Of a stretch of 32,014 nucleotides of DNA, positions 753 to 15,317 are shown one piece after another; position 1 is the first letter of the stretch; each line of letters opens with the position of its first letter. The notes beneath the pieces were generated by a model that worked only from the letters and a program-made list of their open reading frames with translations, was not told where the DNA came from and searched no databases. The position numbers and the translations under genes are program-made. This stretch comes from Rhodobacterales bacterium 32-67-9 (GTDB lineage Bacteria > Pseudomonadota > Alphaproteobacteria > Rhodobacterales > Rhodobacteraceae): assembly GCA_002280515.1 (NCBI GenBank), contig NCEA01000051.1:1-32014 (forward strand). The letters are read 5' to 3'.

Positions 753-1733
753 TTAGTCTCCAGTGGCCGGGGCGGTCGCTGCTGTCTTTCCAGAAAAAAG
801 GCGCCCAACGGCAAAGCTTTGCACGCGGCCTGCATCATCGCGCGTGAGGAACAACGCGTCGAGCCCTGCTTGCCGCGCAAGGCGCCCGCCCGCATTGACG
901 CCCATCACCATTAGCGCCGTCGCCCAGGCATCGGACTCCGCGCAGGTGGGCGCGAGGACAGTGACGGATGCGGGTGAAGTCAGAAGCGGCGCGCCGCGCG
1001 CCGGGTCCATCGTGTGCGACAGATTGCGGCCGTTGACCGTGACCCAGTGACGATAATCGCCCGAGGTCGCCACCGCCGCATCCTGCAAGGACAGGATGGA
1101 ATGGGGCGCACGGCGGTCGCGGTCTGGCGCCTCGACCGCGATGGTCCAGAGGGTGCCGTCTGGGCGCGGACCCATGGCGCGCATTTCGCCGTCGATGCCG
1201 ACCAGTGCATTGCGGATGCCGTGGTCCTGCATCACTTCGGCCAGACGATCCACGCCATGGCCTTTGGCGATGCCGTTCAGGTCCAGCGAGACGGGCGCAG
1301 TTTTGCGCAGCCTGTTACCGTCCAGCTCCAGAACGTCATGGGCCGGGCGGTGCGACGCCTCCATCGCGACGCGGATGGCCTGCGGATCAGCGGCGGCGGG
1401 GCCAAAGCCCCAACCGCTCACCGCGTCGCCCATCCCGACGTCGAAGGCCCCGCCCGAGGCGCGGCCGATCGCCAACCCCAGTTCCAGCACGCGCGCCAGA
1501 TCGGGGGGGATGTCCCGCCATTCCCCCACCGGTGCCGCGTTCAGGCGCATCACGTCGCTGCCCGGCTTCCAGATGGACATCTGCGCATCCACCACGTCCA
1601 CCGCCACCTGAAGGGCGGCGCGCACAGGAGCGGGGTCGAAGCCGGGGTCGGCAAAGAACAGCGCGGTCCAGCGGGTGCCCATGGTCGGCCCGTTCAACGC
1701 GTGGCGGACAAAGTCAGTAGACATCTTCGACAT
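753..1733 (-). CDS. apbE: FAD:protein FMN transferase (ApbE family)
   Basis: ApbE-family enzymes split FAD and attach FMN covalently to a Thr or Ser in extracytoplasmic redox proteins. Visible motifs are MGT at 18-20, MSIW at 52-55, DLNGIAKGHGVDRLA at 151-165, SGDYRHW at 224-230, SHTMDP at 239-244 and ESDAWATALMVMG at 266-278, in the family order and at about its usual length (326 aa). The start overlaps the end of the upstream flavoreductase gene by 20 bases; GGGGAG four bases upstream supports the ATG at 1733, though an ATG at 1724 also exists. No signal peptide or lipobox is visible, which is odd for an enzyme with an apparently exported substrate. The likely target is the neighbouring DUF2271 protein. 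Confidence 0.9.
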   Translation of the reverse strand: MSKMSTDFVRHALNGPTMGTRWTALFFADPGFDPAPVRAALQVAVDVVDAQMSIWKPGSDVMRLNAAPVGEWRDIPPDLARVLELGLAIGRASGGAFDVGMGDAVSGWGFGPAAADPQAIRVAMEASHRPAHDVLELDGNRLRKTAPVSLDLNGIAKGHGVDRLAEVMQDHGIRNALVGIDGEMRAMGPRPDGTLWTIAVEAPDRDRRAPHSILSLQDAAVATSGDYRHWVTVNGRNLSHTMDPARGAPLLTSPASVTVLAPTCAESDAWATALMVMGVNAGGRLARQAGLDALFLTRDDAGRVQSFAVGRLFSGKTAATAPATGD

Positions 1734-3921
1734 AGCGCTCCCCGGCCTTGAGCATCGCGGGCGTCAGATTCATGGGTGCCAGGATATCCTCCAAGGCCCG
1801 GCCCACGCCTTGCGCCATGTCACGCCCGCCGCAGACCATGACCTTTGCGCCCTGGCGGATCGCCTCGGCCACCCGCGCCGCATCGGCTCGCAGCGCATCC
1901 TGCACATAATGCGGCCGCGCCCCGCGCGAGATGGCAGTGGAGAGGCCCGTCAGCCGTCCCTGCGACCGCCACGCCGCCAGATCGTCGCCATAAAGAAAAT
2001 CGCTGTCCGGATGGCGCATCCCGAAGAACAGGTGGACCGGGCGGCGGCGGGAATTGGCGCGGATAATTCCGGCCAGCGGCCCGATCCCGGTGCCCGCTCC
2101 GATCAGGATCAGAGGCGTCCGGCCCCGCCCGGCGTGAAAGCCGGGATTGCGGCGCAAGAAGGCCTGCACGCAGTCGCCCGGCTCCAGCGCCAGAAGATGG
2201 CCGGAACAAAGCCCGCCGGGTTGTTTCTTCACCACAATCTCGACAAAGCCATCGCATGCACCCGAGGCCAGTGAGTAGAACCGGGGCACGGCAGATCCTT
2301 CGGGCAAGATGCCCATGAGGTCGCCTGCCTGAAACCGCGCGAAGCCCCGGCCCTTCAGTCGTGCCCAGAGCGACGCCCGCGGCAGAGCAAAGCGTAGGAT
2401 CGCCGTCGGGGCCCGCACTGCCTCACCATAATCTCGGCGCGAGATGAGGGTCAGGATGTCGGCGGCGGGGCGGGCTGGCTGGTGATCAAGCTCGAGTGTC
2501 CGCCCAAGGGCCTGCCCCAATGCCCGCCCCCAACGCGCGAAGTCCTGCGGCGACTGGCGGTCCACAGTGTCCAGGGGCAACAGAGTGGCCCAGCCCTTGG
2601 CACGGGCGGCCGCGTCCACCTCCGCTGCAAAGGCGCAGAAAGCCGGAAAGCTGCGGTCACCAAAGCCCAGAACGGCCAAGGGTGCGACGGGAGCCGTCGT
2701 CGTGCGCGCAAGCCGGTCAAGAAACTCCTTGGCCGAGTCAGGGGCCGCGCCTTCGCCATAGGTGGCGGCCAGGATCAGGAACCGTTCCGCGCGGGAGTGG
2801 CGGGCCGGGTCGAATGCCGACATCGGCGCGACGTGCACGGCCTGCCCGGCATCCCGAAGGGCACGCGCGAGCGTCGCGGCAAAACCCCAGGTGCTACCGC
2901 CTTCCGAGCCGACGAGGATCACCGTCTGCGCGCGGCCGGCCGGGGCGTTGTCGCGCAGCCGCGGCCGACCCCGCCGACCGGCGATCCAGATCAAGGCGCC
3001 TGTCACGCCCATGACCGGGACGCTCAGCGCGATCAAGCCAAGGATCAGCCCAAGCGCCGCCGCACCTTGTCCGGTGTGCAGCATGTAGATGGTTTCCGAC
3101 ACCCGCTGCCATGGCGAGAGGTCAGCCCAGGTCAGCATCTCGCCCGTGCCCTGATCGATCAGGCCCGTGCCCATATCGGTGGACAGGGTGAACATGTCCT
3201 GCGGATCGCCTTCGTAGGGAAAGCTGAGTTTGCGGAAGCTCTTGACCGGCACAACTCTCAACGCGGCCATCCGCTCCAGCGGGAACTCCATCTGCCCGCT
3301 GACCGCAGCAGGATCGGCCGGGCGTGCCGCGCCATCGGGCAGAAGGTCGAAGGTTGAGGCCGTCATCCACAGCGCCGTCGTTGCCGAGAGAGCAAGGCCG
3401 AGCACAGCAATGCGCGCCAGTTCCACATCCAGCCGTCCGGCCAGTGGCCCGCGCAACCGCGCAAACCAGCGCCGCCAGCCGCCGGTGCGCCGCGCGACCA
3501 GAGCGGCGCCAGACAGGGTCAGCACCAGCAAAGCGGCAGCTCCCGCGGTCATGACCAGCCGCCCGGCATCGTCGAGAAACAGCGACCGGTGCAGGTTGGT
3601 GAGCCAGCGTTCCGCCGGGTTCGGGTCGGCCGAGCCGACATCTGCGCCTGTCGCGGGGTCGATCACGGCGGAACCCGGCGCTCCGCCCTCGAACCACCAG
3701 GCGGTGATCTTGCCCGATGGCGCGCGGCGGATTTCCTCGAGCCCCGGATGCGTGGCGGCAACGCGGGCGGCCAGATCCGCCACGCTTTGCCCTGCCACGA
3801 GCTGCGGTGCGGCCAGACGTTCGGCCGCCGGAAACACCGACAGCGCCACACCGCTGAGCGCGAGGACGATCACGATGACGAGGGCGATCAGCCCCGGCCA
3901 ACGGTGAAGCGCGCGGATCAT
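1714..3921 (-). CDS. PepSY-membrane / flavodoxin / FNR fusion flavoreductase
   Basis: This 735-aa fusion should carry electrons from cytoplasmic NAD(P)H across the inner membrane. Order of parts: TM about 9-30, PepSY-type periplasmic region about 35-118, TMs about 122-143 and 168-190, a second PepSY-like region about 213-268, TM about 286-314, flavodoxin-like domain about 332-470 (VGSEGGSTWG and ATYGEGAAPDS phosphate-binding loops), and a ferredoxin-reductase module about 490-735. The last has the FAD motif RFYSLAS at 547-553, the nucleotide loop GAGTGIGPLAG at 608-618 and CGGRDMAQGV at 697-706. The chain ends in Tyr, as in reductases whose terminal aromatic stacks on FAD. The gene lies 12 bases after the DUF2271 gene and overlaps apbE, so they are probably co-translated. 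Electron direction is inferred. Confidence 0.88.
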   Translation of the reverse strand: MIRALHRWPGLIALVIVIVLALSGVALSVFPAAERLAAPQLVAGQSVADLAARVAATHPGLEEIRRAPSGKITAWWFEGGAPGSAVIDPATGADVGSADPNPAERWLTNLHRSLFLDDAGRLVMTAGAAALLVLTLSGAALVARRTGGWRRWFARLRGPLAGRLDVELARIAVLGLALSATTALWMTASTFDLLPDGAARPADPAAVSGQMEFPLERMAALRVVPVKSFRKLSFPYEGDPQDMFTLSTDMGTGLIDQGTGEMLTWADLSPWQRVSETIYMLHTGQGAAALGLILGLIALSVPVMGVTGALIWIAGRRGRPRLRDNAPAGRAQTVILVGSEGGSTWGFAATLARALRDAGQAVHVAPMSAFDPARHSRAERFLILAATYGEGAAPDSAKEFLDRLARTTTAPVAPLAVLGFGDRSFPAFCAFAAEVDAAARAKGWATLLPLDTVDRQSPQDFARWGRALGQALGRTLELDHQPARPAADILTLISRRDYGEAVRAPTAILRFALPRASLWARLKGRGFARFQAGDLMGILPEGSAVPRFYSLASGACDGFVEIVVKKQPGGLCSGHLLALEPGDCVQAFLRRNPGFHAGRGRTPLILIGAGTGIGPLAGIIRANSRRRPVHLFFGMRHPDSDFLYGDDLAAWRSQGRLTGLSTAISRGARPHYVQDALRADAARVAEAIRQGAKVMVCGGRDMAQGVGRALEDILAPMNLTPAMLKAGERYVEDVY

Positions 3922-3933
3922 TGGTCGACCCCT

Positions 3934-4401
3934 TTACTGATAAGTGAAGCTGGCGATGTAGCGGCGTCCCGGAACGGAAGTGCCGGCACCAGCGGCGGTC
4001 AGCGGCACCGCGATCTCGTTCGGGCTGTCGCGCATGTCCTCGACCGCGGCGTCGATATGCAGGGTGTAGCCCGCATCGAACAGCGCATCGGCCAAGTCGA
4101 GCGTGATCTTCAGCGTCCGGCCGGCGCCGACGCTGGCGCCGGTGATGCCGTTGATCTGCGCCGGGTCGCCGCCGGTGGCAGCGTACCAGTCGCGTAGGTG
4201 CTCGTAGTATTTCGACTTGCCGCCCGCCATCCACAGGCTGCCGACATAGGCGCCTGAGGCATCGGTGACGTAAAGCGCCAGATAGGCACCATCACCGCCA
4301 TAGCTGTTCATCGTGGTGGTCAGCACCACGGGCCGGGCCATCGCCAACCCCGGCAGGGTCAGCGCGGTGGTCAGGGCAAGGGTCGCGAGAAGGGGTTTCA
4401 T
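3934..4401 (-). CDS. Exported DUF2271 protein, probable flavinylation substrate
   Basis: This 155-aa protein starts with a signal peptide (MKPLLATLALTTALTLPGLAMA, cleavage near residue 22). The mature part matches DUF2271 proteins, which family knowledge places beside PepSY reductases and ApbE. Residues 84-90 read NGITGAS, close to the ApbE target pattern Dxx(S/T)GA(S/T); FMN would attach to Thr87 by analogy, with Asn in place of the common Asp. The start has an AGGAACCCCT-type Shine-Dalgarno. Operon: secreted poly-Asp protein upstream, flavoreductase and apbE downstream. The likely role is a periplasmic one-subunit flavin electron carrier. Family recognition is fairly sure; the modified residue is inference. 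Confidence 0.85.
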   Translation of the reverse strand: MKPLLATLALTTALTLPGLAMARPVVLTTTMNSYGGDGAYLALYVTDASGAYVGSLWMAGGKSKYYEHLRDWYAATGGDPAQINGITGASVGAGRTLKITLDLADALFDAGYTLHIDAAVEDMRDSPNEIAVPLTAAGAGTSVPGRRYIASFTYQ

Positions 4402-4459
4402 AGGGGTTCCTTTCGGTGAAGGGTGGCGCCCCGCAGGACGGAGGGCGCGACAGCCGGGA

Positions 4460-4852
<393 letters not shown>

Positions 4853-4896
4853 GGCTCGGTCTCCTTGGATCTGATGCTGCCAAGGTGCGCTCCGGA

Positions 4897-4922
4897 CCTG
4901 AGCGATTCCTGACGCTGTCCTG
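4897..4922. promoter_or_regulatory. Three CCTG (CAGG) half-sites phased at 11 bp
   Basis: CCTG occurs at 4897, 4908 and 4919, exactly one helical turn apart, just inside the shared box at 4927-4948 and upstream of the poly-Asp gene. OmpR-family regulators typically bind direct repeats with this spacing. The phasing is seen; the assignment to the regulator encoded at 6124 is inference. Confidence 0.45.
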
Positions 4923-4926
4923 CTTT

Positions 4927-4948
4927 CTGCTTCAGCTTGGCGTCAGGA
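4927..4948 (-). promoter_or_regulatory. Putative response-regulator box (copy B)
   Basis: Plus strand reads CTGCTTCAGC-N5-GTCAGGA. The same 17 defined bases with the same 5-base gap recur at 6052-6073. TCAG is repeated with 11-bp spacing inside the box, as for OmpR-type regulators. It ends 75 bases upstream of the poly-Asp protein ATG. Confidence 0.6.
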
Positions 4949-4980
4949 AGAAAAAGGCCCCGCCGGGACAGGGCGAGGCC
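4945..4980 (-). terminator. Rho-independent terminator after cytochrome b gene
   Basis: On the minus strand GGCCTCGCC (4980-4972) and GGCGGGGCC (4964-4956) form a nine-base stem with one mismatch, followed by TTTTTCTTCC. It lies 40 bases past the cytochrome b stop and separates that operon from the poly-Asp/DUF2271 operon. Its T-tract abuts regulatory box B. Confidence 0.8.
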
Positions 4981-5019
4981 GGTCGGACCACGAGGGACAG
5001 GCGTGGCCAGGGAACAGGG

Positions 5020-5670
5020 TCAGGCGATGTCGCCGGGTTCGGGTGCGCGCTTGTCGCCGGTGATCATGGCGCGGGCGAGGTTCTCGCGGTGGCGGATCGA
5101 GGCGAGGACGACACCGCCGACATGCGCTGCCACCATGAGCAGCATCAGGTTGGCCAAGGTCTCGTGCACCTCCTTGAGCGGACCTTCGACCTCGCGTCCC
5201 TCGCCGTATTCATCACCATCGTCATCCGCCCATGCGGGGGTCACGATCTGCGGCAAGGCGGGCAGCATCGCCACGCGGTCGGGTTCCGCCATCAACCAGC
5301 CGGTGAAGGCCGTGCCCGACAGCGTCAGCAAGAGCGCCACGATCATCGCCGCCCCGGCCGGATTGTGACCGAGGTAACGGCGTTCTCCCCCGCGCAACAT
5401 GGAACCGAGATAGGCGAGCGTCGCGCCCGGGCCTTTCACGAATTGCGCAAAGCGCGCGTAGCGGCTGCCTGCAAAGCCCCAGATCAACCGGAAAGCCGCA
5501 AGGCCCGCGACGGTGTATCCCGTGAGCTCATGAACGGGCTGCACCTCGTCGGCCGTCAGCCATGCGGTCGCGAAGGCGGCCACCAGGCCCCAGTGGAAGA
5601 CGCGCACCAATGGGTCCCAGACGCGCAGGGTCGCGGCGCCCGTCACCTGTGCGGAGACATGGTCAGTCAT
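5020..5670 (-). CDS. Cytochrome b561-type diheme membrane protein
   Basis: A 216-aa integral membrane cytochrome with four hydrophobic segments (about 24-40, 50-68, 105-127, 168-192). Candidate heme ligands are His26 (FHWG), His47 (HELTGY), His169 and His183 (HETLANLM ... AAHVGG), the pattern of cytochrome b/b6-domain proteins of the Ni/Fe-hydrogenase cytochrome b type. A long acidic periplasmic loop (AWADDDGDEYGEG) precedes the last helix. The ATG at 5670 was chosen because the family N-terminus (RVWDPLVRVFHW) follows directly and it overlaps the upstream PepSY gene by eight bases. It probably exchanges electrons between the quinone pool and the periplasmic PepSY/flavin proteins. Confidence 0.88.
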   Translation of the reverse strand: MTDHVSAQVTGAATLRVWDPLVRVFHWGLVAAFATAWLTADEVQPVHELTGYTVAGLAAFRLIWGFAGSRYARFAQFVKGPGATLAYLGSMLRGGERRYLGHNPAGAAMIVALLLTLSGTAFTGWLMAEPDRVAMLPALPQIVTPAWADDDGDEYGEGREVEGPLKEVHETLANLMLLMVAAHVGGVVLASIRHRENLARAMITGDKRAPEPGDIA

Positions 5671-5971
5671 TTTCCTGTCTTTCGCGTTCGCGACCCTGGT
5701 CGTCATCCTTGAATTCGAACTCGACGATCTGGAGCGTCCCGGGATGCAGCTTGACCTCGATCGTGCGGCTTTCGGCGTCGCGACCGTTGATTTCATAGCA
5801 GCCGTCGTCGATCCGGATGCGGCGAACCTCCCAGCCCTGCGCAATGGCGAACTGGCTCACGGCTTCCCGCGGTTTCCAGTCGGCCATCGGAACAAAGCAA
5901 TCATCGTCCGCAAAGGCGGCCCCGGAAGGAAGGGCTGCCAGAAAGGCAAGAATTGTCAGGGTCTTTCGCAT
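5663..5971 (-). CDS. Small exported PepSY-domain protein
   Basis: 102 aa with a signal peptide (MRKTLTILAFLAALPSGAAFA) and a mature region of about 80 residues that matches the single-domain PepSY_2 type: CFVPMADWKPREAVSQFA, then GWEVRRIRIDDGCYEI and a final strand EVKLHPGTLQIVEFEF. Two Cys may form a disulfide. A GTG at 5980 would add three residues, but the GGAG located eight bases before the ATG at 5971 favours the latter. First gene of a two-gene operon with cytochrome b; the regulator at 6124 is divergent. Such pairs are known beside two-component systems; the molecular role is not established. Confidence 0.85.
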   Translation of the reverse strand: MRKTLTILAFLAALPSGAAFADDDCFVPMADWKPREAVSQFAIAQGWEVRRIRIDDGCYEINGRDAESRTIEVKLHPGTLQIVEFEFKDDDQGRERERQEND

Positions 5972-6051
5972 GGGCCACACTCCGGGTTACGGCCAGTCTG
6001 GATGATGTAATGCGCGCCGAAGCTGACGGCAGCCTTAAGCCGGCTGATGGC

Positions 6052-6073
6052 CTGCTTCAGCCTGATGTCAGGA
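6052..6073. promoter_or_regulatory. Putative response-regulator box (copy A)
   Basis: CTGCTTCAGC-N5-GTCAGGA, matching copy B at 4927-4948. It lies 81 bases upstream of the PepSY ATG (5971) in the same orientation relative to that operon as copy B has to the poly-Asp gene, and 51 bases upstream of the response-regulator ATG (6124). It could therefore serve both divergent promoters, including autoregulation. Related TGA-containing half-sites occur nearby (GCTGA at 6022 and 6043). Confidence 0.6.
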
Positions 6074-6123
6074 GAGAGGGTCATAACGATGCCAAGACGG
6101 GTCCCAGAGGACGGCAAGAGACC

Positions 6124-6783
6124 ATGCGCATACTGCTGATCGAGGACGACATGGTTCTGGGCGCGGCCGTGCGCGATCAGATCGCCGCCGATGGCCATTC
6201 GGTCGACTGGGTCCAGCGCCTTGATGCTGCCGGGGATGCCATGGCAAGCACGGGTTTCGATCTCTTGCTGCTGGACCTGATGCTGCCCGATGGCAGGGGT
6301 ATCCCATTCCTTCGCCGCCTGCGGGCAAAGGGCGATGTGACACCCGTTATCATTTTGACCGCGCTCGACCAGATCAGCGACAGGATCGAGGGGTTGAACG
6401 CGGGTGCCGACGACTACCTCGTGAAACCCTTTGACCTCGCCGAGCTGTCCGCCCGGATCGGGTCGGTCGCGCGGCGCTATGCGGGCAACCCCAACCCCAT
6501 CGTCACGCACGGGCCGCTGGAGATCGACCTTGCCGCCCGCAGCATCCACCGTGACGGCCGCCCCGTCGCCCTGACCGCCCGCGAATGGGCGCTGTTCGCG
6601 GCCTTTCTGTCGCGGCCCGGCCAGCTTCTGTCCAAGGCCCAGCTCGAGGACAAGCTCTATGCCTTCGGGGCCGAGATCGAGAGCAACACGATCGAGGTGC
6701 ATGTCAGCCGACTGAGGAAAAAGCTGGGCACCGGAGTGATCGAGACCGAGCGCGGTCTAGGCTACCGTCTGGGCCGGGCATGA
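6124..6783 (+). CDS. OmpR-family response regulator
   Basis: 219 aa: a receiver domain (1-112) with the acidic pocket EDD at 7-9, phospho-acceptor Asp51 (LLLLDLMLPDG), the Thr switch in ILTALD and Lys in the LVKPFDLAEL motif; then an OmpR/PhoB winged helix (125-219). The ATG at 6124 is chosen because the domain starts there (MRILLIEDD); longer in-frame extensions show no homology. The stop overlaps the kinase ATG (ATGA). Direct-repeat boxes upstream of both neighbouring operons suggest it controls the PepSY/cytochrome/flavin genes and itself. Its kinase partner carries a frameshift, so its input may be altered. Confidence 0.92.
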   Translation: MRILLIEDDMVLGAAVRDQIAADGHSVDWVQRLDAAGDAMASTGFDLLLLDLMLPDGRGIPFLRRLRAKGDVTPVIILTALDQISDRIEGLNAGADDYLVKPFDLAELSARIGSVARRYAGNPNPIVTHGPLEIDLAARSIHRDGRPVALTAREWALFAAFLSRPGQLLSKAQLEDKLYAFGAEIESNTIEVHVSRLRKKLGTGVIETERGLGYRLGRA

Positions 6784-8109
6784 GGGCGCCGCGCAGCCTT
6801 CAGGGCCGCCTAGGGCTGTGGCTGGGTGTGGCCCTCACGGTGCTCTGGGTTGCGGCGGCCAGCGTGACGGCGCTGATCGCGCGTGGCGAGATCGAGGAGG
6901 TCTTCGATTCGGCGCTGCAGGAAACTGCGCAGCGCATCCTGCCGCTGGCGGTCGTCGATATCCTGAACCGCGAGGAGGCCGGGATCAGCCAGCGCCTGGC
7001 CGCAATCCGGGAACACGACGAGTTCTTGACCTACATCGTGCGCGACGACGAAGGGCGCATCCTGCTGCGATCCCATGCCGCTGATCCCGCTGACTTTCCT
7101 GCCTGGGAAGGGATCGGGCTCCACCAGACCGCAACGCACCGACTTTACAGCGACGAGGCCGTGCAAGGCACGATCCGGATCACCGTGGCCGAACCTCTGG
7201 ATCATCGCGCCAGCGTCGCGCGCGAGATCCAGATGGGCCTTGGCCTGCCGCTCCTGATCGTGCTGCCCGTGGCGCTCCTGGCCATCGCGCTGGCCCTCCG
7301 CGTCAGCCTTGCACCCTTGCGCCATTTCCGCGTCCGGCTGTCGGCCCGGGCTGAGTCCGGTCACTAGCGCCGATCTGCCGACCGAAATCGCGCCCCTTGC
7401 CGACACGATGAACAGCCTTCTTTCGCGGTTGGATGCGGCCTTCTTGGCCGAACGCAGCTTTGCCGCCAATGCCGCACATGAACTGCGAACCCCGCTCGCC
7501 GGTGCCATCGCACAGGCACAACGGCTCCAGGCCGAGACGCGGGACGCCGATGCAAAGGCCCGTGCGGCCGAGATCGAGGCCACGCTGAAGCGCCTGACGC
7601 GCGTTGCGGAACGCCTGTTGCAACTGGCGCGGGCCGAGGGCGGACGGCTGCGGCGCGACGTGGCGGCCGACCTTCGTCCCGTGGCTCGGCTGATCGTCGG
7701 CGACCTTGCGCGCATCGCTGGATCGGGACGCATCCGCCTGACCCTTCCGGACAGCGCGGTCATGTCGGATCTGGACCCGGATTCTTTTGCGATCCTGATG
7801 CGTAACCTGATTGAGAATGCCTTGCTGTACAGTCGCGCGGATAGCCCCGTCGAGGTATCCCTTGCGAATGACGGAACGCTGGTCGTCGCCAATGACGGCC
7901 CTGTTGTCCCTGCAGACGACCTTGCCCGCCTGACGCAACCATTCGAGCGAGCGCGGTCCGATGGCACAGGCAGCGGTCTCGGGCTGGCAATTGTGAGATC
8001 CATCGCAGAACGGACTGGAAGCAGTTTCGAGATTCGATCCCCCAGAGCACCCGGCGCATCAGGCTTTGAAGCGAGGTTCCATGTGAAGGACACGAAGGCG
8101 GTCGAGTAA
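6780..8109 (+). pseudogene. Sensor histidine kinase, split by a frameshift
   Basis: The first frame (6780-7367) has a TM at about 12-35, a periplasmic sensor region and a second TM ([18 protein letters not shown]), then ends at a TAG shortly after the HAMP start (SLAPLRHFR). The kinase core continues in the +1 frame from about 7350: [24 protein letters not shown], phospho-His motif [13 protein letters not shown]-box ([13 protein letters not shown]) and G-box (GSGLGLAIV), ending at 8109. Homology switches frame between about 7345 and 7365, around TCGGCCCGGGCTGAG. The join also looks a few residues short relative to normal HAMP linkers, which suggests a small deletion. This is either a real loss-of-function mutation or a sequencing error; all kinase motifs are otherwise intact. 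Confidence 0.85.
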
Positions 8110-8749: not shown

Positions 8750-10141
8750 TCACATCACTAGCTTGCTCCGTCTACCGTCGAAAGGTATGCGAATTTCGAC
8801 CGCCGCGCCACTGGTGGGTTCGGCAACGCGTGCTGTCCCGCCATGAGCCTCTGCGACTTTCCTCACGATCGCCAGGCCAAGCCCGCACCCCCCCGACGCA
8901 TCGCCGCTCATTCGGAAGAACCGGTCGAAAACCCGGTCGCGCAAGTCTTCGGGAATGCCTTGTCCTGAATCCACCACCCGGATCACCACGGCGTCGTCGT
9001 CGAACGCCAACTCCAGTCCGACGTCGCCCCCGTCGGGGCAACCATAGCGGCTGGCATTGTCCAGCATGTTTTCGATTGCCTCCGACAACATGACCGGATC
9101 GCCCGAAATCGGGCATTCGTCGCCGGACAGCTTGAAGGACACAGAAACGTTGCGCCGCAGTTCCCGTTCCGCAAACCGCTTCGCCAGATCTTCCGCCAGC
9201 GCCCGGATGTCCACGGCTTGCCATTTGTCCGAGGTTTCGCGTCCACGGGCCTTTTCCATCGACAGAAGCTGTTGCGTCAGGCGACCGGTTCGCCGCGCGG
9301 TCTCGGCAAGCTCCACCACACGGCTACGAAGGTCCTCCTCGCTCGGCGCGGTCGTGGCTGCCTCGGCCTGCGCCTGTATCGCAGCGATCGGATTCCGCAG
9401 TTGATGCGCCGCGTCGGAGATGAAGGCGTCGCGCACTGCGAAGGCATCCGATAGCCTCGCGAAAAGCGAGTTCATTGCACCGACGAGGTTTCGGACCTCC
9501 TTGGGAACCACGCGCCTGATGGGACCGAGATCATCGGGCGACCGCAGGGCAACGGCCTCGCGCAGCTGCAAGAGCGGCCTGAGACCGAGGTTGATCCCGA
9601 ACCAGACCAGCAAGGCTGCCGCACCGATAACTGTGGTCATCAAGACGATCGACTGCACCAGAAGCTCCAGGCTCAGGGCGTCGCGCTGGTTGACGGTCTG
9701 CCAGACGTCGACCGTGACCCAGCCCCCGAATTGTGGCTCAGCAATGAATTCGCGCAGCGTCACCACGCGCACCGGTTTTCCCAGGCTCACAGCATCATAG
9801 AAGAAGGGGATGCCGGACAAGACGTCGGCCCCATCCGGCCGCGGCGGTGGATCCGAGTATCCGGTTACGAAACGCCCCTCCGGACCCTCGATGCGGTAGT
9901 AGACCGGATCGCCCAGCGCGTTGGTCAGTGAGTCGAGCAGCTGCTCGGTCAGCAGATCACCCTCACTGAGGACAACGTCGCGGGAAATCGTCAACGCAAC
10001 TGCCAGCAATGTATTGTCGTAAAGACGCTGCGACGTCCGTTCGGCCATGACATAGCGCGCCACGGCCGCGAGACCTGCAACAAAGACCAAGGGCATGATG
10101 ATCAGGACGAACAGTCGGCTGCGCAGAGCCCAGCCGTTCAT
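8750..10141 (-). CDS. tctE: TctE-like sensor histidine kinase
   Basis: 463 aa. TM1 about 8-28, periplasmic domain about 30-160, TM2 about 163-186, HAMP-like linker, dimerisation/phosphotransfer motif FISDAAHQLRNPIAAIQ with His246, N-box (SEAIENMLDNASRYG), G1 (VVDSGQGIP) and G2 (GGCGLGLAIV). The HQLRNP form of the H-box and the partner TctD next to TctC/TctA genes match the tricarboxylate-transport regulator TctE. The ATG at 10141 overlaps the tctD stop (ATGA); no homology extends upstream of it. Expected role: sense an external tri- or dicarboxylate and phosphorylate TctD. Confidence 0.9.
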   Translation of the reverse strand: MNGWALRSRLFVLIIMPLVFVAGLAAVARYVMAERTSQRLYDNTLLAVALTISRDVVLSEGDLLTEQLLDSLTNALGDPVYYRIEGPEGRFVTGYSDPPPRPDGADVLSGIPFFYDAVSLGKPVRVVTLREFIAEPQFGGWVTVDVWQTVNQRDALSLELLVQSIVLMTTVIGAAALLVWFGINLGLRPLLQLREAVALRSPDDLGPIRRVVPKEVRNLVGAMNSLFARLSDAFAVRDAFISDAAHQLRNPIAAIQAQAEAATTAPSEEDLRSRVVELAETARRTGRLTQQLLSMEKARGRETSDKWQAVDIRALAEDLAKRFAERELRRNVSVSFKLSGDECPISGDPVMLSEAIENMLDNASRYGCPDGGDVGLELAFDDDAVVIRVVDSGQGIPEDLRDRVFDRFFRMSGDASGGCGLGLAIVRKVAEAHGGTARVAEPTSGAAVEIRIPFDGRRSKLVM

Positions 10142-10809
10142 TTGGCATCGTCGTCCAGAAGATATCCCAATCCACGCGCCGTACGGATCGTGACACCTGT
10201 CCCGGTCAGCTTGCGCCGCAATCTCGATACCAGCAGTTCGACGGCGTTTGCCTCCACCTCGGATCCGACGCCGTAAAGTGCGTCGGAAATGCGGTCCTTC
10301 GAGACGATCCTGCCGCTGTGGTCCACGAGACATTCGAAGAGCGAAAGCTCCCTCCTTGGCAAGTCGATCGCTCCGTCGGGGCCAGTCACGGTCCGCGCGA
10401 TGCGGTCAAAGCGCAACCGGCCGATGTCCTGCACACCCGTCTGGATATTCGACCTGCGTCGGGACAGCGCCCGGATCCGCGCGGTCAACTCGGCCATTTC
10501 AAACGGTTTGACGAGGTAGTCATCGGCACCTGCATCCAGCCCCTCCACCCGGTCATCAAGCTCGGCGCGGGCAGTAAGCATGATTACGGGAATCGTGCCG
10601 CCACGTTTGCGTAGCGCGCGCACGATTTCGAAACCGCTGAGGCCGGGAAGGTTGACATCTAGGATTGCAATGTCTGCGCCCTCGGCTTCAAGAAACCGGC
10701 TCGCTTCGGCACCGTCCGACAGCCAGTCCACGGCATGGCCTTGATCGCGCAAGGAATTCTCGATCCCTTTCGCCAGCCCCTCATTGTCTTCGACAAGGAC
10801 GATCCGCAT
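10138..10809 (-). CDS. tctD: TctD-like response regulator (OmpR family)
   Basis: 223 aa: receiver with acidic residues at 7-8 (VEDN), phospho-acceptor Asp51 (AILDVNLPG), Thr switch (MLTAR) and Lys in LVKPFEMAEL; winged-helix DNA-binding domain about 125-222 with the ending VTIRTARGLGYLL. It is divergent from tctC with a 176-base gap, so it probably activates the transporter and the downstream catabolic genes. It is translationally coupled to the kinase gene. Confidence 0.92.
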   Translation of the reverse strand: MRIVLVEDNEGLAKGIENSLRDQGHAVDWLSDGAEASRFLEAEGADIAILDVNLPGLSGFEIVRALRKRGGTIPVIMLTARAELDDRVEGLDAGADDYLVKPFEMAELTARIRALSRRRSNIQTGVQDIGRLRFDRIARTVTGPDGAIDLPRRELSLFECLVDHSGRIVSKDRISDALYGVGSEVEANAVELLVSRLRRKLTGTGVTIRTARGLGYLLDDDAK

Positions 10810-10863
10810 TGCTCAGCCCGACAGGTTCCGGACAGGATGCACGCTTATTGTGCAAGATATCAA

Positions 10864-10893
10864 GCCGCCCGAGCGTGAGGACTCTCGGACGGC
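10864..10893. repeat. 10-bp imperfect inverted repeat in the tctD/tctC gap
   Basis: GCCGCCCGAG (10864-10873) and CTCGGACGGC (10884-10893) pair with one mismatch across a 10-base loop. There is no T-run. It may be an operator or a leader hairpin; the function is unknown. Confidence 0.4.
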
Positions 10894-10924
10894 GGGTGTC
10901 TGGGAGGAGCCGGGAAGAAGCGAT

Positions 10925-10938
10925 CGTCGTTGACGACG
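10925..10938. promoter_or_regulatory. Palindrome CGTCGT-TG-ACGACG upstream of tctC
   Basis: A perfect 6-bp-arm palindrome 48 bases upstream of the tctC ATG, in the divergent tctD/tctC control region. It is a candidate operator. Which protein binds it cannot be told from the sequence; TctD or catabolite control are possibilities. Confidence 0.35.
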
Positions 10939-10985
10939 TTCGTCCCGCTATTCCGAATATGAAATCGGTTAGGGGAGGAACCCAC

Positions 10986-12095
10986 ATGACAGGACTATTC
11001 ACGACAACGCGTCGGGGCGCCATTGGCATGGCGCTTGGCGCGGTGGCGGCATTCGGGCTTGCCGGCCCGGCCGCGGCAGAAGTTTCGTTCGAAGGCAAGA
11101 CCATAGAATGGATCATTCCCTTCTCCGCCGGCGGCGGGTCGGACACCTGGGCGCGCTTCAACGGGCCGCTCCTGGGCAAATACCTTCCTGGCAACCCGAC
11201 TGTCGTGGTCGTGAACGAGCCCGGCGGCGGTTCGACCAAGGGCACCAATCTTTTTGCTGCCCGCGCCAAACCCGACGGGTTGACCATCCTCGGCACGTCC
11301 GGCTCCACGCAGTTCCCCTATCTCTTGGGCGATCCCCGCGTGCGCTATGAATATGCGGATTGGAAGATCGCGATGGCCGCGCCGACCGGCGGTGTTGCCT
11401 ATACCTCGCCCTCGACCGGGGTAACCGGCCCGGAGGACATCGCCAAGCTGGCCGGTCAGAAGCTCATCTACGCGAGCCAGGGTGCGACCTCGCTCGACCT
11501 CGTCCCGCTTCTTGGATTCAAGATGATGGGCCTCGACGTCCAGCATGTCTTCGGCTTCAAGGGCCGCGGCGACGGCCGTCTAGCCTTCGAGCGGGGCGAG
11601 ACCAACATCGACTACCAGACCTCTTCTGCCTATATCAAGAACGTGCAGCCACTGGTCGATGCCGGCACGGCAGTTCCGCTCTTCAGCTGGGGCGTTCTGG
11701 ACGATGACGGCAAGTTGGTCCGCGACCCGACCTTCCCCGACCTTCCGCATTTCGGCGAAGCCTATGAGATGATGACCGGCAAGGCGCCCGAAGGCCCGGA
11801 CTACGACGCCTACTTCGCCTTCTTCACGGCCGGCTTCCCGGCGCAGAAGATGGTGTTCCTGCCCAAGGACACGCCGCAAGAGATTGTTGATGCCTATCAG
11901 GCCGCGTTCGAAGCAATGAAGAACGACCCTGAGTATCAGGCAAACAAGGAGGCCGTGCTCGGCACCTACGAGCAGGTGACCGGCAAAGCGGCCGACGCGC
12001 TCTTCAAGAAGGGCACGACGATCACGCCGGAGCTGCGCAAGCAGGTCGTGGAGATGCTGGCCGCCGATTACGGCGTCAAGCTGGGTGAAAAATAG
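10986..12095 (+). CDS. tctC: Tripartite tricarboxylate transporter substrate-binding protein
   Basis: 369 aa. The signal peptide (about 1-31) has a twin arginine (TTTRRGAIGMAL) and an AAA-E cleavage site, so Tat or Sec export is possible. The mature part begins KTIEWIIPFSAGGGSDTWAR, the typical Bug/TctC start with the ligand-binding loop (PFSAGGGSD). The conserved GGGSTKGTN and later YASQGATS strands are also present. GGGGAGGA seven to eight bases upstream is a strong ribosome site that fixes the ATG at 10986. It delivers a carboxylate from the periplasm to the TctAB membrane part. It is followed by an intercistronic hairpin. Confidence 0.92.
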   Translation: MTGLFTTTRRGAIGMALGAVAAFGLAGPAAAEVSFEGKTIEWIIPFSAGGGSDTWARFNGPLLGKYLPGNPTVVVVNEPGGGSTKGTNLFAARAKPDGLTILGTSGSTQFPYLLGDPRVRYEYADWKIAMAAPTGGVAYTSPSTGVTGPEDIAKLAGQKLIYASQGATSLDLVPLLGFKMMGLDVQHVFGFKGRGDGRLAFERGETNIDYQTSSAYIKNVQPLVDAGTAVPLFSWGVLDDDGKLVRDPTFPDLPHFGEAYEMMTGKAPEGPDYDAYFAFFTAGFPAQKMVFLPKDTPQEIVDAYQAAFEAMKNDPEYQANKEAVLGTYEQVTGKAADALFKKGTTITPELRKQVVEMLAADYGVKLGEK

Positions 12096-12132
12096 GTCTG
12101 CACGGTTCGGCCGGTAAGTCCGAAGCAACCTG

Positions 12133-12164
12133 TGCGGCCCGCTGCAACGCGTGAGCGGGCCGCA
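12133..12164 (+). terminator. Strong hairpin between tctC and tctAB
   Basis: GCGGCCCGCT (12134-12143) and AGCGGGCCGC (12154-12163) form a perfect 10-bp stem, extended by a T-A pair, with a 10-base loop. No T-run follows, so full termination is unlikely. A hairpin placed here commonly stabilises the binding-protein mRNA or lowers membrane-subunit expression; that role is inferred. Confidence 0.6.
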
Positions 12165-12235
12165 TAACTCTCACCTTCCATTCCCCATGCCCACATCGCC
12201 CGAAGCATTGCTGCGCCGGGCCGGAGGATCCCGCC

Positions 12236-14215
12236 ATGATGGACACTCTGCTAACCGCGCTGGTCACGCTCTTCACGTTTCAGCACTTGGCCTACTTGCT
12301 GCTCGGCGTGTCCGTGGGGCTGGTTATCGGCGTCATTCCCGGTCTCGGCGGTATCGCCGGTCTCTCGCTGCTGGTGCCGTTCCTCTACGGCATGGACCCG
12401 ATCTCGGCGCTCGGGATGCTTATCGGCCTTGTCGCGGTGATCCCGACCTCCGACACGTTCTCGTCGGTTCTGATGGGGATACCGGGGTCGAGCGCCAGCC
12501 AGGCCACCGTGCTTGACGGCTTTCCGATGGCCAAGCAGGGTCAGGCCGCGCGGGCATTGTCGGCGGCATTCATCTCTTCGCTTTTCGGCGGCGTAGTTGG
12601 CGCTGTCGTCCTTACCGGGTTCGTGCTGATCGCGCGGCCCCTGATCCTCCTCTTCGGATCGGCCGAGCTTTTCATGCTCGCGCTCTTCGGCCTCTCGATG
12701 GTTGCCGTGCTGGCGGGCCGAAGCCTGCCCAAAGGCCTTGCGGCCTGTGCCGTCGGCCTCCTGATCGGGTCGATCGGCGCTGCTCCCGCGACCGGAGAGT
12801 TCCGCATGATCTTTGGCACCGAATACCTCTATGACGGCATCCCGCTGGTCATCATCGGTCTGGGACTATTTGCCATTCCGGAAATCTCCGACCTTCTGCG
12901 CAAGAACAGTTCGATCGCCGAGGGCAATGTGCTGGGATCCGGCTGGGGCCTTGGGTTTCTCGACTGGTGGCGAAACATTTTCTTGTCGATCCGCTGCGCA
13001 GGCATTGGCTGCATGATAGGCGCGATCCCCGGGCTTGGGGGTTCGGTTGTAGACTGGATCGCCTATGGCCACGCGGTGCAGACCGCCAAGGACACGTCGA
13101 AATTCGGCAAGGGCGATCCACGCGGCGTCGTCGCACCCGAGAGCGCCAACAACGCGATGCAGGGTGGGGCTCTGCTGCCGACGATGCTCTTCGGCATTCC
13201 CGGTTCCGGGTCCATGGCGGTGTTCCTGGGCGGCATGGTCCTGATCGGGATCGAGCCCGGACCGTCGATGGTCGGACCCGACCTCAATATTACATATTCG
13301 ATCATCTGGTCGCTGGCCCTTGCGAACATCATGGGCGCGGGCATCTGCCTGGCGTTGGCGCAACCGATCTCGCGCCTGACCTCGATCCCGTTCCAGTTGC
13401 TCGCGCCCTGTATGATCGCGCTGATCTGCTTCGCCGCCTTCCAGGCGACGCGCGATCTCTCCGACCTCGTCGCGCTTCTCGCCATCGGCCTTGTCGGCAT
13501 CCTGATGAAGCGCTTCGGCTGGCCGCGCCCCGCCCTGCTCATCGGCTACGTTCTGGCGCCGCAGGCCGAGACGTTCTTCTACCAGGCGCTTCAGTTCAAC
13601 GGCTGGAGCTTCCTGATCCGGCCGGGCGTGCTGATCATAGCTGTGCTGACCCTGGCCTCGATCTATTTCGGGTTGAAGAACCGGGTCGACGACACGGGCC
13701 CCACGGGCGACGCCGTCGTGACCTCGCATACCAGCCGCAATGTCCAGATCGCATTCGCCCTCGCGATGATGGCGTTCTTCGGGATGGCGCTCTGGGATGC
13801 GTCGGGTCAAAGCTTCCTCGGCGCGGTCTTCCCTCTTGGGGTTGGTGTCGTCGGGGTTGTCTTCGGTTTTATCCTCCTGATGCATCTCTGGCGTGGCCAC
13901 GAGGATCATCCGGCGTTCTTCGACTATGAGATCGTCGGCGATCATGTCGGCAACGAAGGCAACAGCTGGTTCTGGACCGGCCCCGCCTGGATCGCTGCGC
14001 TGGTCGCGGCAACTGCCTTGGTCGGCTTTTACATCGCGATGATCGTCTTCTTTGTCGCCTTCCTGCGACTTCGCGCGAACGCATCATGGACAAAGACCGT
14101 TGTGATGACGGCTTGTGCGGCGGGCTTCATCCTTGGTCTCGCTTACATGCTTAGCCTGAACTTCCCGTCCGGCTGGCTGCAAAGCGCCTATGACCTCCCC
14201 TGGCCGATCCGTTGA
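12236..14215 (+). CDS. TctA-TctB fusion, tripartite tricarboxylate transporter
   Basis: 659 aa, about 150 longer than TctA. Residues 1 to about 495 are TctA, with the repeated signature GVIPGLGG at about 32-39 and GAIPGLGG in the second half (near residue 262), plus ESANNAMQGGALLPTMLFGIPGS. After a hydrophilic linker (about 480-502), residues 502-659 carry further membrane helices (RNVQIAFALAMMAFFG ... and a last helix pair ending SGWLQSAYD) that look like the small TctB subunit. TctB is normally a separate gene, and none is found nearby. GGAGGA at 12223-12228 supports the start. It imports the acid captured by TctC with a proton or sodium gradient. Confidence 0.9.
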   Translation: MMDTLLTALVTLFTFQHLAYLLLGVSVGLVIGVIPGLGGIAGLSLLVPFLYGMDPISALGMLIGLVAVIPTSDTFSSVLMGIPGSSASQATVLDGFPMAKQGQAARALSAAFISSLFGGVVGAVVLTGFVLIARPLILLFGSAELFMLALFGLSMVAVLAGRSLPKGLAACAVGLLIGSIGAAPATGEFRMIFGTEYLYDGIPLVIIGLGLFAIPEISDLLRKNSSIAEGNVLGSGWGLGFLDWWRNIFLSIRCAGIGCMIGAIPGLGGSVVDWIAYGHAVQTAKDTSKFGKGDPRGVVAPESANNAMQGGALLPTMLFGIPGSGSMAVFLGGMVLIGIEPGPSMVGPDLNITYSIIWSLALANIMGAGICLALAQPISRLTSIPFQLLAPCMIALICFAAFQATRDLSDLVALLAIGLVGILMKRFGWPRPALLIGYVLAPQAETFFYQALQFNGWSFLIRPGVLIIAVLTLASIYFGLKNRVDDTGPTGDAVVTSHTSRNVQIAFALAMMAFFGMALWDASGQSFLGAVFPLGVGVVGVVFGFILLMHLWRGHEDHPAFFDYEIVGDHVGNEGNSWFWTGPAWIAALVAATALVGFYIAMIVFFVAFLRLRANASWTKTVVMTACAAGFILGLAYMLSLNFPSGWLQSAYDLPWPIR

Positions 14216-14225
14216 GGAAAAAGAG

Positions 14226-15317
14226 ATGACGCAGACCGCAATCCCCTTCCTCTTCCTGCGCGGCGGCACGTCGCGCGGGCCCTACTTCAACCGCGCCGAT
14301 TTGCCCGAAGAGCGCGGGACACTGGCCGAGGTGCTGCTGTCGGTTCTTGGCTCCGGCCACCCGCTCAACATCGACGGCATCGGCGGCGGCGCGGCGGTGA
14401 CGACCAAGGTCGCGATGCTGTCGCGTTCCGCCGATCCTGACGCGGATGTCGATTATTTCTTCGCGCAGGTCTCGGTCGAGGACCGGACGGTGGACTTCAA
14501 ACCAACCTGCGGCAATATCCTGTCCGGCGTCGGTCCTGCGGCGCTGGAGATGGGACTGGTCAAGGCCACCGGGGACAAGACGCGCATTCGGGTGTTGTCG
14601 GTGAACACCGGCGCGCGCATCGAAGCGGTGGTGGAGACGCCCGGCGGCAAGGTCCGTTATGAAGGGTCCGCCGCAATCGACGGCGTGCCGGGGACGGCCG
14701 CGCCGATCTACCTGAACTTCATGGACGTCGTCGGCTCCAGCACCGGTGCCCTGCTGCCGACCGGGTCGGTCCGTGACCTGATCGACGGCATCGAGGTCAC
14801 CTGCATGGATGTCGCCATGCCGATGGTTATCGCCCGTGCTGCCGATTTCGGGTTGACCGGCCATGAGACCGCCGCCGAGCTCGACGCCAACCGCGATTTC
14901 TACGCGCGGATGGAACCGATCCGCATCGAGGCAGGCAAGCGCATGGGCATGGGCGATGTCTCGGGCTCCGTCACGCCGAAATTCGGGTTGCTGGCGGAAC
15001 CGCGCGCTGGCGGGACCGTTGCCGCGCGCTACTTCATGCCCAAGAACTGCCATCCGACGATGGCGGTGACGGGGTCGCAATGCCTCGCCTCCTGTGTGCT
15101 GACGCCGGGGACGGTCGCCGAGGGCCTGTTCACGCCGCCACAAGGCGTTCCGGCGCTGGTGGTGATTGAACATCCCTCCGGTACGATCGACGTGACGGTC
15201 GATTATGAAAACCGCCCGGACGGCTTTCAACTGCGATCCGCGGGCTTGCTGCGCACGGCCAGATTGCTTGCGCGTGGCGAGGTGTTCGTGCCCGCCCGTG
15301 TCTGGAAAGGGCTTTAA
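14226..15317 (+). CDS. PrpF / 4-oxalomesaconate tautomerase-like isomerase
   Basis: 363 aa. Motifs: LRGGTSRGPYF at 11-21, IDGIGGG at 49-55 with Lys61 (TTKVAML), and FKPTCGNILSGVGP with Cys95, the residues that in PrpF-type enzymes move the proton during double-bond migration. A second conserved block, GDVSGSVTPKFGLLA, follows. GalD of this family acts on 4-oxalomesaconate and PrpF on 2-methylaconitate; no gallate or methylcitrate genes are present here. With tricarboxylate transporter and TcuAB around it, a cis/trans-aconitate or substituted-aconitate isomerase is the best guess. The start at 14226 has GAGG/AAGAG upstream and lies 10 bases after tctAB. Confidence 0.85.
   Translation: MTQTAIPFLFLRGGTSRGPYFNRADLPEERGTLAEVLLSVLGSGHPLNIDGIGGGAAVTTKVAMLSRSADPDADVDYFFAQVSVEDRTVDFKPTCGNILSGVGPAALEMGLVKATGDKTRIRVLSVNTGARIEAVVETPGGKVRYEGSAAIDGVPGTAAPIYLNFMDVVGSSTGALLPTGSVRDLIDGIEVTCMDVAMPMVIARAADFGLTGHETAAELDANRDFYARMEPIRIEAGKRMGMGDVSGSVTPKFGLLAEPRAGGTVAARYFMPKNCHPTMAVTGSQCLASCVLTPGTVAEGLFTPPQGVPALVVIEHPSGTIDVTVDYENRPDGFQLRSAGLLRTARLLARGEVFVPARVWKGL

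Follow-up and report, generated by a model that had tools for sequence, protein, structure and literature searches.

An altered PmrA/BqsR-type box in convergent pairs, predicted to control a flavinylated PepSY system in a Rhodobacterales genome

Gene content of the locus

The window, that is, the whole stretch of 32 014 nucleotides analysed here (Rhodobacterales bacterium 32-67-9, contig NCEA01000051.1), carries two minus-strand operons beside a plus-strand two-component gene pair (Table 1). In the operon furthest from the pair, operon A, an ApbE gene lies together with genes for a DUF2271 protein and a PepSY_TM membrane protein, which is the gene content of a flavinylation cluster. DUF2271 proteins are reported to be flavinylated by ApbE at [ST]GA[ST] (PMC8238504), and TGAS was present in the DUF2271 protein of all 80 loci compared below. 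The first gene of operon A encoded either a poly-Asp or a PepSY protein in loci L061-L140, with a common C-terminal tail of the type NPAPAGTVAPPxNGLFGNGAPP; a strict expression for this tail matched 58 of 75 first genes, and close variants were seen by eye in 16 of the other 17.

The second operon begins with a small PepSY_2 gene that adjoins the regulator gene, as in PepSY two-component loci. In 12 of 13 orthologous loci no more than 150 bp separated the PepSY match from the regulator; in the thirteenth (L043) the distance was 2.3 kb. A PHROGs search gave no match for the poly-Asp and PepSY proteins. PepSY_2 was absent from the 14 control genomes, so no well-known genome could serve as a yardstick. 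The genome itself holds a second PepSY_2 gene (G000:C14:20176-20394), on a contig without the composite element described below. Just downstream of ApbE, a gene for a transposase-type HTH protein (PF01527; 213-605, minus strand) is consistent with a mobile border, and at 8750-15317 a second two-component pair beside TctC/TctA-type transporter and PrpF genes apparently forms a separate organic-acid uptake locus.

Table 1. Genes and sequence elements of the locus, by position in the window
Feature	Position	Strand	Remarks
ApbE flavin transferase	753..1733	-	PF02424
PepSY_TM membrane domain fused to flavodoxin and FAD/NAD reductase domains	1714..3921	-	PF03929, PF00258, PF00175
DUF2271 protein with TGAS, of the published ApbE flavinylation motif type	3934..4401	-	PF10029
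Poly-Asp protein, first gene of operon A	4460..4852	-	Signal peptide by eye; no Pfam family match
Inverted second site of composite, CTGAGCGATTCCTGAC on plus strand, GTCAG-N6-CTCAG on minus strand	4898..4913	+	16 bp from first site
Direct-repeat site CTGACGCCAAGCTGAAG	4930..4946	-	Faces poly-Asp/DUF2271 operon; core of copy A
Terminator-like hairpin, then T-run	4956..4980	-	By eye; ends cytochrome b operon just before composite
Cytochrome b561-type membrane protein	5020..5670	-	PF01292
Small PepSY_2 protein	5663..5971	-	PF13670; signal peptide by eye
Direct-repeat site CTGACGGCAGCCTTAAG	6023..6039	+	Faces response-regulator gene
Direct-repeat site CTGACATCAGGCTGAAG	6055..6071	-	Faces PepSY/cytochrome b operon; core of copy B; forms a convergent pair with 6023-6039 at 15 bp
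Response regulator, receiver and winged-helix output	6124..6783	+	PF00072, PF00486; BasR/PmrA closest by sequence among solved structures
Sensor kinase gene, N-terminal part	6780..7367	+	2CSK_N; frame ends early
Sensor kinase gene, HisKA and HATPase part, another frame	7309..8109	+	Open as one frame in relatives

Structure of the composite element

A first-pass annotation of this DNA had described a 22-bp box, CTGCTTCAGC-N5-GTCAGGA, in two copies of the same orientation upstream of the two minus-strand operons. A scan of the window found both exact on the plus strand, at 4927-4948 (copy A) and 6052-6073 (copy B), as the only matches at up to three mismatches, against 0.04 expected and with two matches in none of 100 shuffles. 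The distances of 75 and 81 bases to the operons proved accurate (starts ATG 4852 and ATG 5971), as did the TCAG repeat at 11 bp inside the box. Three CCTG units in 11-bp steps had been placed by copy B and lie instead beside copy A (4897, 4908 and 4919), where two of them belong to an inverted site.

As a unit, the box is real and rare but incomplete. Read on the minus strand, as became visible from the promoters of relatives, it is a direct repeat CTGAC-N6-CTGAAG with an 11-bp step, and a third copy of this motif on the opposite strand (6023-6039) points to the response-regulator gene. The motif is part of a four-half-site array, or composite, made up of two half-sites, a gap of 15-16 bp and two inverted half-sites, which form a convergent pair; each promoter region holds one. 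The divergent region has a single composite shared by the regulator and PepSY genes, each arm facing the gene on its far side. Three promoters are thereby provided with a composite, those of poly-Asp-DUF2271-PepSY_TM reductase-ApbE, of PepSY-cytochrome b561 and of the regulator and kinase. In the window, distances from site to start codon are 77, 83 and 84 bp. The 11-bp direct repeat is the spacing of OmpR/PhoB-type tandem half-sites and was found with the N6 spacer only. In the promoter sets of relatives, the PmrA/BqsR half-site letters CTTAAG/TTAAG were absent as a consensus, which read CTGAC...CTGAAG; the window half-site at 6034-6039 reads CTTAAG where the consensus has CTGAAG.

In the genome as a whole (3.72 Mb), the search for the box at up to three mismatches gave 29 matches, two exact and 27 at exactly three mismatches; the latter were taken as background because a reversed control pattern also gave 27 in the same genome. 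CTGAC-N6-CTKAAG had six exact matches, three of them at these promoters, and the full composite occurred only at 4898-4946 and 6023-6071. The box is not a chance occurrence. A wider regulon based on the other three CTGAC-N6-CTKAAG matches was rejected, as none lies within a composite. The single motif CTGAC-N6-CTGAAG was likewise discarded as a co-occurrence marker across 61 genomes (relatives and own) for being too noisy, with eight matches in one genome (G002) that has no close ortholog.

Conservation across relatives

Loci were fetched by DUF2271 similarity from titled records and 80 of 276 were kept; these are mostly from Rhodobacteraceae, with some from Rhizobiales genera and Thalassospira. 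Regulator and PepSY counts are based on those 72 loci that also held a regulator, oriented as expected and with at least 70 % identity. The motif search in related genomes that had been proposed at the outset found the box conserved upstream of orthologous operons, namely no more than 700 bp upstream of DUF2271 in 75 of 80 loci, facing the regulator in 64 of 72 and facing PepSY in 51 of 72, the last site being missing in 21. This agrees with the suggestion that one candidate regulon joins both minus-strand units, and adds the regulator/kinase operon to it. Ten other spacer lengths (2-5 and 7-12) gave no match at any of the three promoters in the 80-locus set. Among 200 shuffled half-site controls, means were 0.01, 0.16 and 0.00 and maxima 1, 31 and 0 at the DUF2271, regulator and PepSY promoters respectively; the maximum of 31 came from a single shuffle, which presumably struck another conserved stretch of the regulator promoter. 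In the first set of 60 relatives, 13 regulator orthologs had at least 72 % identity, and the regulator-facing site was exact in ten of these and one letter off in three.

The 80-locus set is redundant and partly overlaps the first set (L062/G020, L078/G005). Redundancy reduction took the 76 operon A promoters (window included) to 34 at <80 % identity and the 73 divergent regions to 35, and the half-sites ranked among the most conserved columns of both reduced sets. Of the 34 operon A promoters, 30 had a start codon 76-78 bp beyond the first site. Under a stricter cut, all 26 operon A promoters had the inverted arm at one and the same gap. On the regulator side, 26 of 30 had it at this gap or a single base further, as did 11 of 13 on the PepSY side, and the remainder lacked the exact letters. 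Because loci are redundant and some cassettes have apparently been horizontally transferred, the locus counts and the Fisher test given below are not independent.

Downstream of the composite, operon A promoters carry a CCAGATTG block, a -10-like consensus, followed by a Shine-Dalgarno sequence; the window deviates from this block, and the -10 is weakly conserved at the divergent promoters. The consensus of relatives shows a similar G+C-rich block and T-run at the position of the terminator-like hairpin.

Co-occurrence of composite and regulator

The composite was present in 47 of 295 family genomes and a control pattern in none, and the regulator (E at most 1e-70) was present in 63 of the same genomes. 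Both occurred in 46, the regulator only in 17, the composite only in one and neither in 231 (Fisher p 2.4e-38, not corrected for relatedness), so that a regulator ortholog accompanied 46 of 47 genomes with the composite compared with 17 of 248 without. Together with conservation at three promoters, this supports the initial reading of the OmpR-type pattern as the probable site of this regulator. The composite also followed regulator identity, being found in 35 of 38 genomes at 80 % or above, 11 of 17 at 70-79 % and none of eight below 70 %.

The exact composite was absent from 17 of the 63 regulator genomes, including three at 85 % identity. At sequence level, 14 of these 17 were examined (G108 and G328 were left out), and 12 had a convergent pair at a 32-33 bp offset with up to two mismatches (regulator 61-85 % identical), such as CTGAAGCCTTCCTGAAG with CTGAAGCGAAGCTGAAG in G141; in G027 (L051) the pair was present with one mismatch. 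Two sites lay at a 48 bp offset instead in G155, and no pair at up to two mismatches was found in G135 or for the second regulator copy in G095.

Across the 47 genomes there were 79 distinct composite places (one in 17 genomes, two in 28 and three in two), 73 of them within 5 kb of a regulator ortholog. In G323, the contig that carries operon A and its composite is not the one with the regulator, and its end is at least 16 kb away from them; in G296 the two composite places lie 30 kb from the regulator. Conservation at such unlinked targets goes beyond what linkage alone would explain. For G128 and G139, which are draft assemblies, the outlying places may stem from split loci. In the one genome with a composite and no regulator ortholog at the E cut-off (G175), the surrounding ORFs matched no module protein, and we infer a relic.

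Regulator and sensor kinase

The protein at 6124 has the PF00072 receiver and PF00486 winged-helix output of the OmpR/PhoB family, as the first-pass annotation had held. Its best NCBIfam matches, PmrA and QseB, were both below the cut-off (200.8 of 330 and 185.5 of 345 bits). The recognition-helix core SNTIEVH[VIL]SRLRKKLG was found in 70 of 71 orthologs, the remaining one falling outside the search expression. In the alignment to BasR/PmrA, Asn188 was kept and Asn196 replaced by Arg, an exchange also seen in distant paralogs; we assume that the PhoB counterpart of Asn196 is Arg201. PmrA is reported to contact bases through Asn188 and Asn196 (PMC4660055), and Arg201 of PhoB to bond guanine, Asn196 being compared with its PhoB counterpart in the same source (PMC3973317). 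We infer that an Arg at the Asn196 position suits a half-site with G in third place, CTGA instead of CTTA. A half-site that moves from CTTA to CTGA while the recognition helix replaces Asn by Arg would be a clear example of cis-trans co-evolution for a box of OmpR type.

A frameshift, which could be either a true mutation or an assembly error, splits the kinase gene of this genome as assembled (6780-8109). Among relatives, a single open frame of at least 400 residues was present in 70 of 71, and the 71st (L106) is interrupted by a contig end. The BqsS kinase carries an RExxE motif, and REHDE, which is of this type, occurs in the letters of the window kinase; it was dropped as evidence on iron, not being conserved in 13 aligned relatives.

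Alternative explanations

It is very likely, given its conservation and distribution, that the OmpR-family regulator at 6124 has the composite as its operator and controls all three promoters through it; for the narrower claim that this regulator binds the element, the same patterns leave little doubt. An operator that belongs to a different regulator, either another OmpR-family protein or an iron/redox repressor, with the two-component genes merely a target, could draw on the many paralogs (30 matches in the own genome), the parts of the recognition helix shared by distant paralogs (L023, L024, L033) and the one genome in which a composite stands without an ortholog that passes the cut-off. 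It is nevertheless improbable, as the composite tracks the 6124-type regulator, sits at the regulator's own promoter and has half-sites that relax in more diverged orthologs. That the repeat arose by chance, or that one promoter was duplicated locally, is extremely improbable despite the mere 1.1 kb between the two composites of the window, since spacers and flanks differ between promoters and the element is conserved across relatives while the control pattern was never matched. The arms of the divergent region are complementary (CTGAC/GTCAG, CTGAAG/CTTCAG), as in an RNA hairpin of a leader or attenuator, but the spacers were complementary at 2.00 of 6 positions compared with a shuffle mean of 2.12, a value reached by 821 of 1000 shuffles (20 distinct pairs), and the hairpin was rejected on this ground. 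A hairpin is made highly improbable also by the operon A arms, which are out of register for pairing, by the inferred -10, which comes only downstream of the element, and by the invariant step of 11 bp, the mark of a helical turn.

Either direction of regulation is compatible with the sequence. Since the inferred -35 region is overlapped by the inner arm, a repressor bound there could block polymerase until the signal arrives. However, BqsR is reported to activate with its lowest half-site on the -35 in one studied promoter (PMC4682146), PmrA is reported to induce its targets, and no good -35 hexamer for unaided transcription was seen by eye, so that repression appears rather unlikely. Because the inner arm at operon A covers the -35 region and no such hexamer was seen there, the regulator is likely to be an activator.

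Comparison with known systems

The findings support a box of PmrA/BqsR type whose half-site is altered and which occurs in convergent pairs; its predicted target is a flavinylated PepSY system. PmrA/BasR of Klebsiella and Salmonella, the nearest solved relative of the regulator, likewise uses head-to-tail hexamers 5 bp apart with an 11-bp step. Its half-site is CTTAAG/CTTAAT, whereas here it is CTGA(A/C)G, with Arg in place of Asn196, two boxes in convergent pairing and different targets. For BqsR of Pseudomonas aeruginosa, a TTAAG-N6-TTAAG box and one promoter with four half-sites are reported (PMC4682146). The likeness to BqsRS (CarSR) thus covers the tandem box at N6, the four-half-site promoter and, as reported, PepSY genes adjoining the two-component genes; the half-site letters differ, the RExxE motif is not a conserved feature here, and no DUF2271/ApbE/cytochrome b unit is described for BqsRS in the text compared. 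The kinase BqsS is reported to be an Fe2+ sensor (PMC12666569).

In DbfQRS of Vibrio cholerae, a small exported PepSY gene also lies beside the regulator and kinase genes; the PepSY protein DbfQ is reported to act on its kinase, autoregulation to be positive, and PepSY genes to be over 60-fold enriched near two-component genes (PMC12714742). Here, in contrast, the PepSY and regulator genes point in opposite directions, cytochrome b561 comes next after PepSY, and the predicted targets concern periplasmic electron transfer rather than biofilm. Flavinylated PepSY/DUF2271 systems are widespread, with 3220 clusters in a published survey that reports control by Fur, including Fur repression of the PepSY-like clusters of Shewanella and Caulobacter (PMC8238504), whereas a two-component operator is predicted here. 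The clusters of that survey (Meheust et al. 2021) share ApbE, DUF2271 with [ST]GA[ST] and PepSY_TM with an NAD-binding domain, as described there; the present locus differs in its poly-Asp/PepSY first gene and in having no DUF4198 match among the operon products. The reported SHP/diheme cytochrome c/cytochrome b clusters resemble the locus in a membrane cytochrome b beside kinase and regulator genes, a divergent promoter and a small periplasmic accessory protein (Orf1 there); membership was rejected, as neither SHP nor diheme cytochrome c was found in the nine products scanned (756-8106). A search of open-licence papers for this combination of genes and operator found no description of the operator.

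Proposed mechanism

The locus is probably a dedicated, self-activating PmrA/BqsR-type two-component regulon comprising the flavinylated PepSY/DUF2271/ApbE unit and the PepSY/cytochrome b561 unit. The phosphorylated regulator would bind as head-to-tail dimers, one per arm and two per composite. At operon A the inner arm ends about 10 bp upstream of the conserved -10-like block and would thereby cover the -35 region. Activation of the regulator's own promoter would create a positive feedback loop, and both electron-transfer operons would be switched on together, the divergent composite firing in both directions. A compact operator and its regulator would thus tie the flavinylated system and the PepSY/cytochrome b561 unit to one sensor, providing a handle for finding the signal.

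By analogy with DbfQ in another species, the small PepSY protein could modulate the kinase and so give feedback, a prospect that appears evenly balanced. Judging from other species, the signal may be a periplasmic metal ion or redox state, and the output may reduce a periplasmic acceptor, e.g. ferric iron, via flavinylated DUF2271. The PepSY protein UipA reportedly binds uranium and iron. PepSY proteins are also reported to bind lanthanides (PMC11845868), and a metal signal is plausible given these binding properties; related PepSY loci elsewhere are described as Fur-regulated and iron-linked (PMC8238504 among the sources). On these analogies, iron or another metal might equally well be or not be the signal or substrate. 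More tentatively still, the locus might represent an undescribed class of PepSY two-component system in Alphaproteobacteria, with about two to three promoters and two dimers on a convergent four-half-site operator firing both ways, dedicated to an inner-membrane flavin/heme electron exporter, and with PepSY and poly-Asp proteins feeding metal status to the kinase.

Distribution of the cassette and further sites

In a genome of another family, a regulator of 40 % identity is preceded, at a distance of about 120 bp, by an exact CTGAC-N6-CTGAAG (G050:C1:3413248-3413264). The box type may therefore be older than the module, although this single site could also be due to chance. Extra motif copies were seen upstream of operon A's own site in six relatives (L043 5516, L044 8322, L066 8816, L082 8995, L100 8782, L122 8708) and may mark further regulon members. 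Closely similar cassettes occurred in different genera (L081-L084, L110-L136), for example Haematobacter, Roseibium, Pannonibacter and Thioclava, each 94 % in DUF2271, which suggests that the whole predicted regulon has been horizontally transferred.
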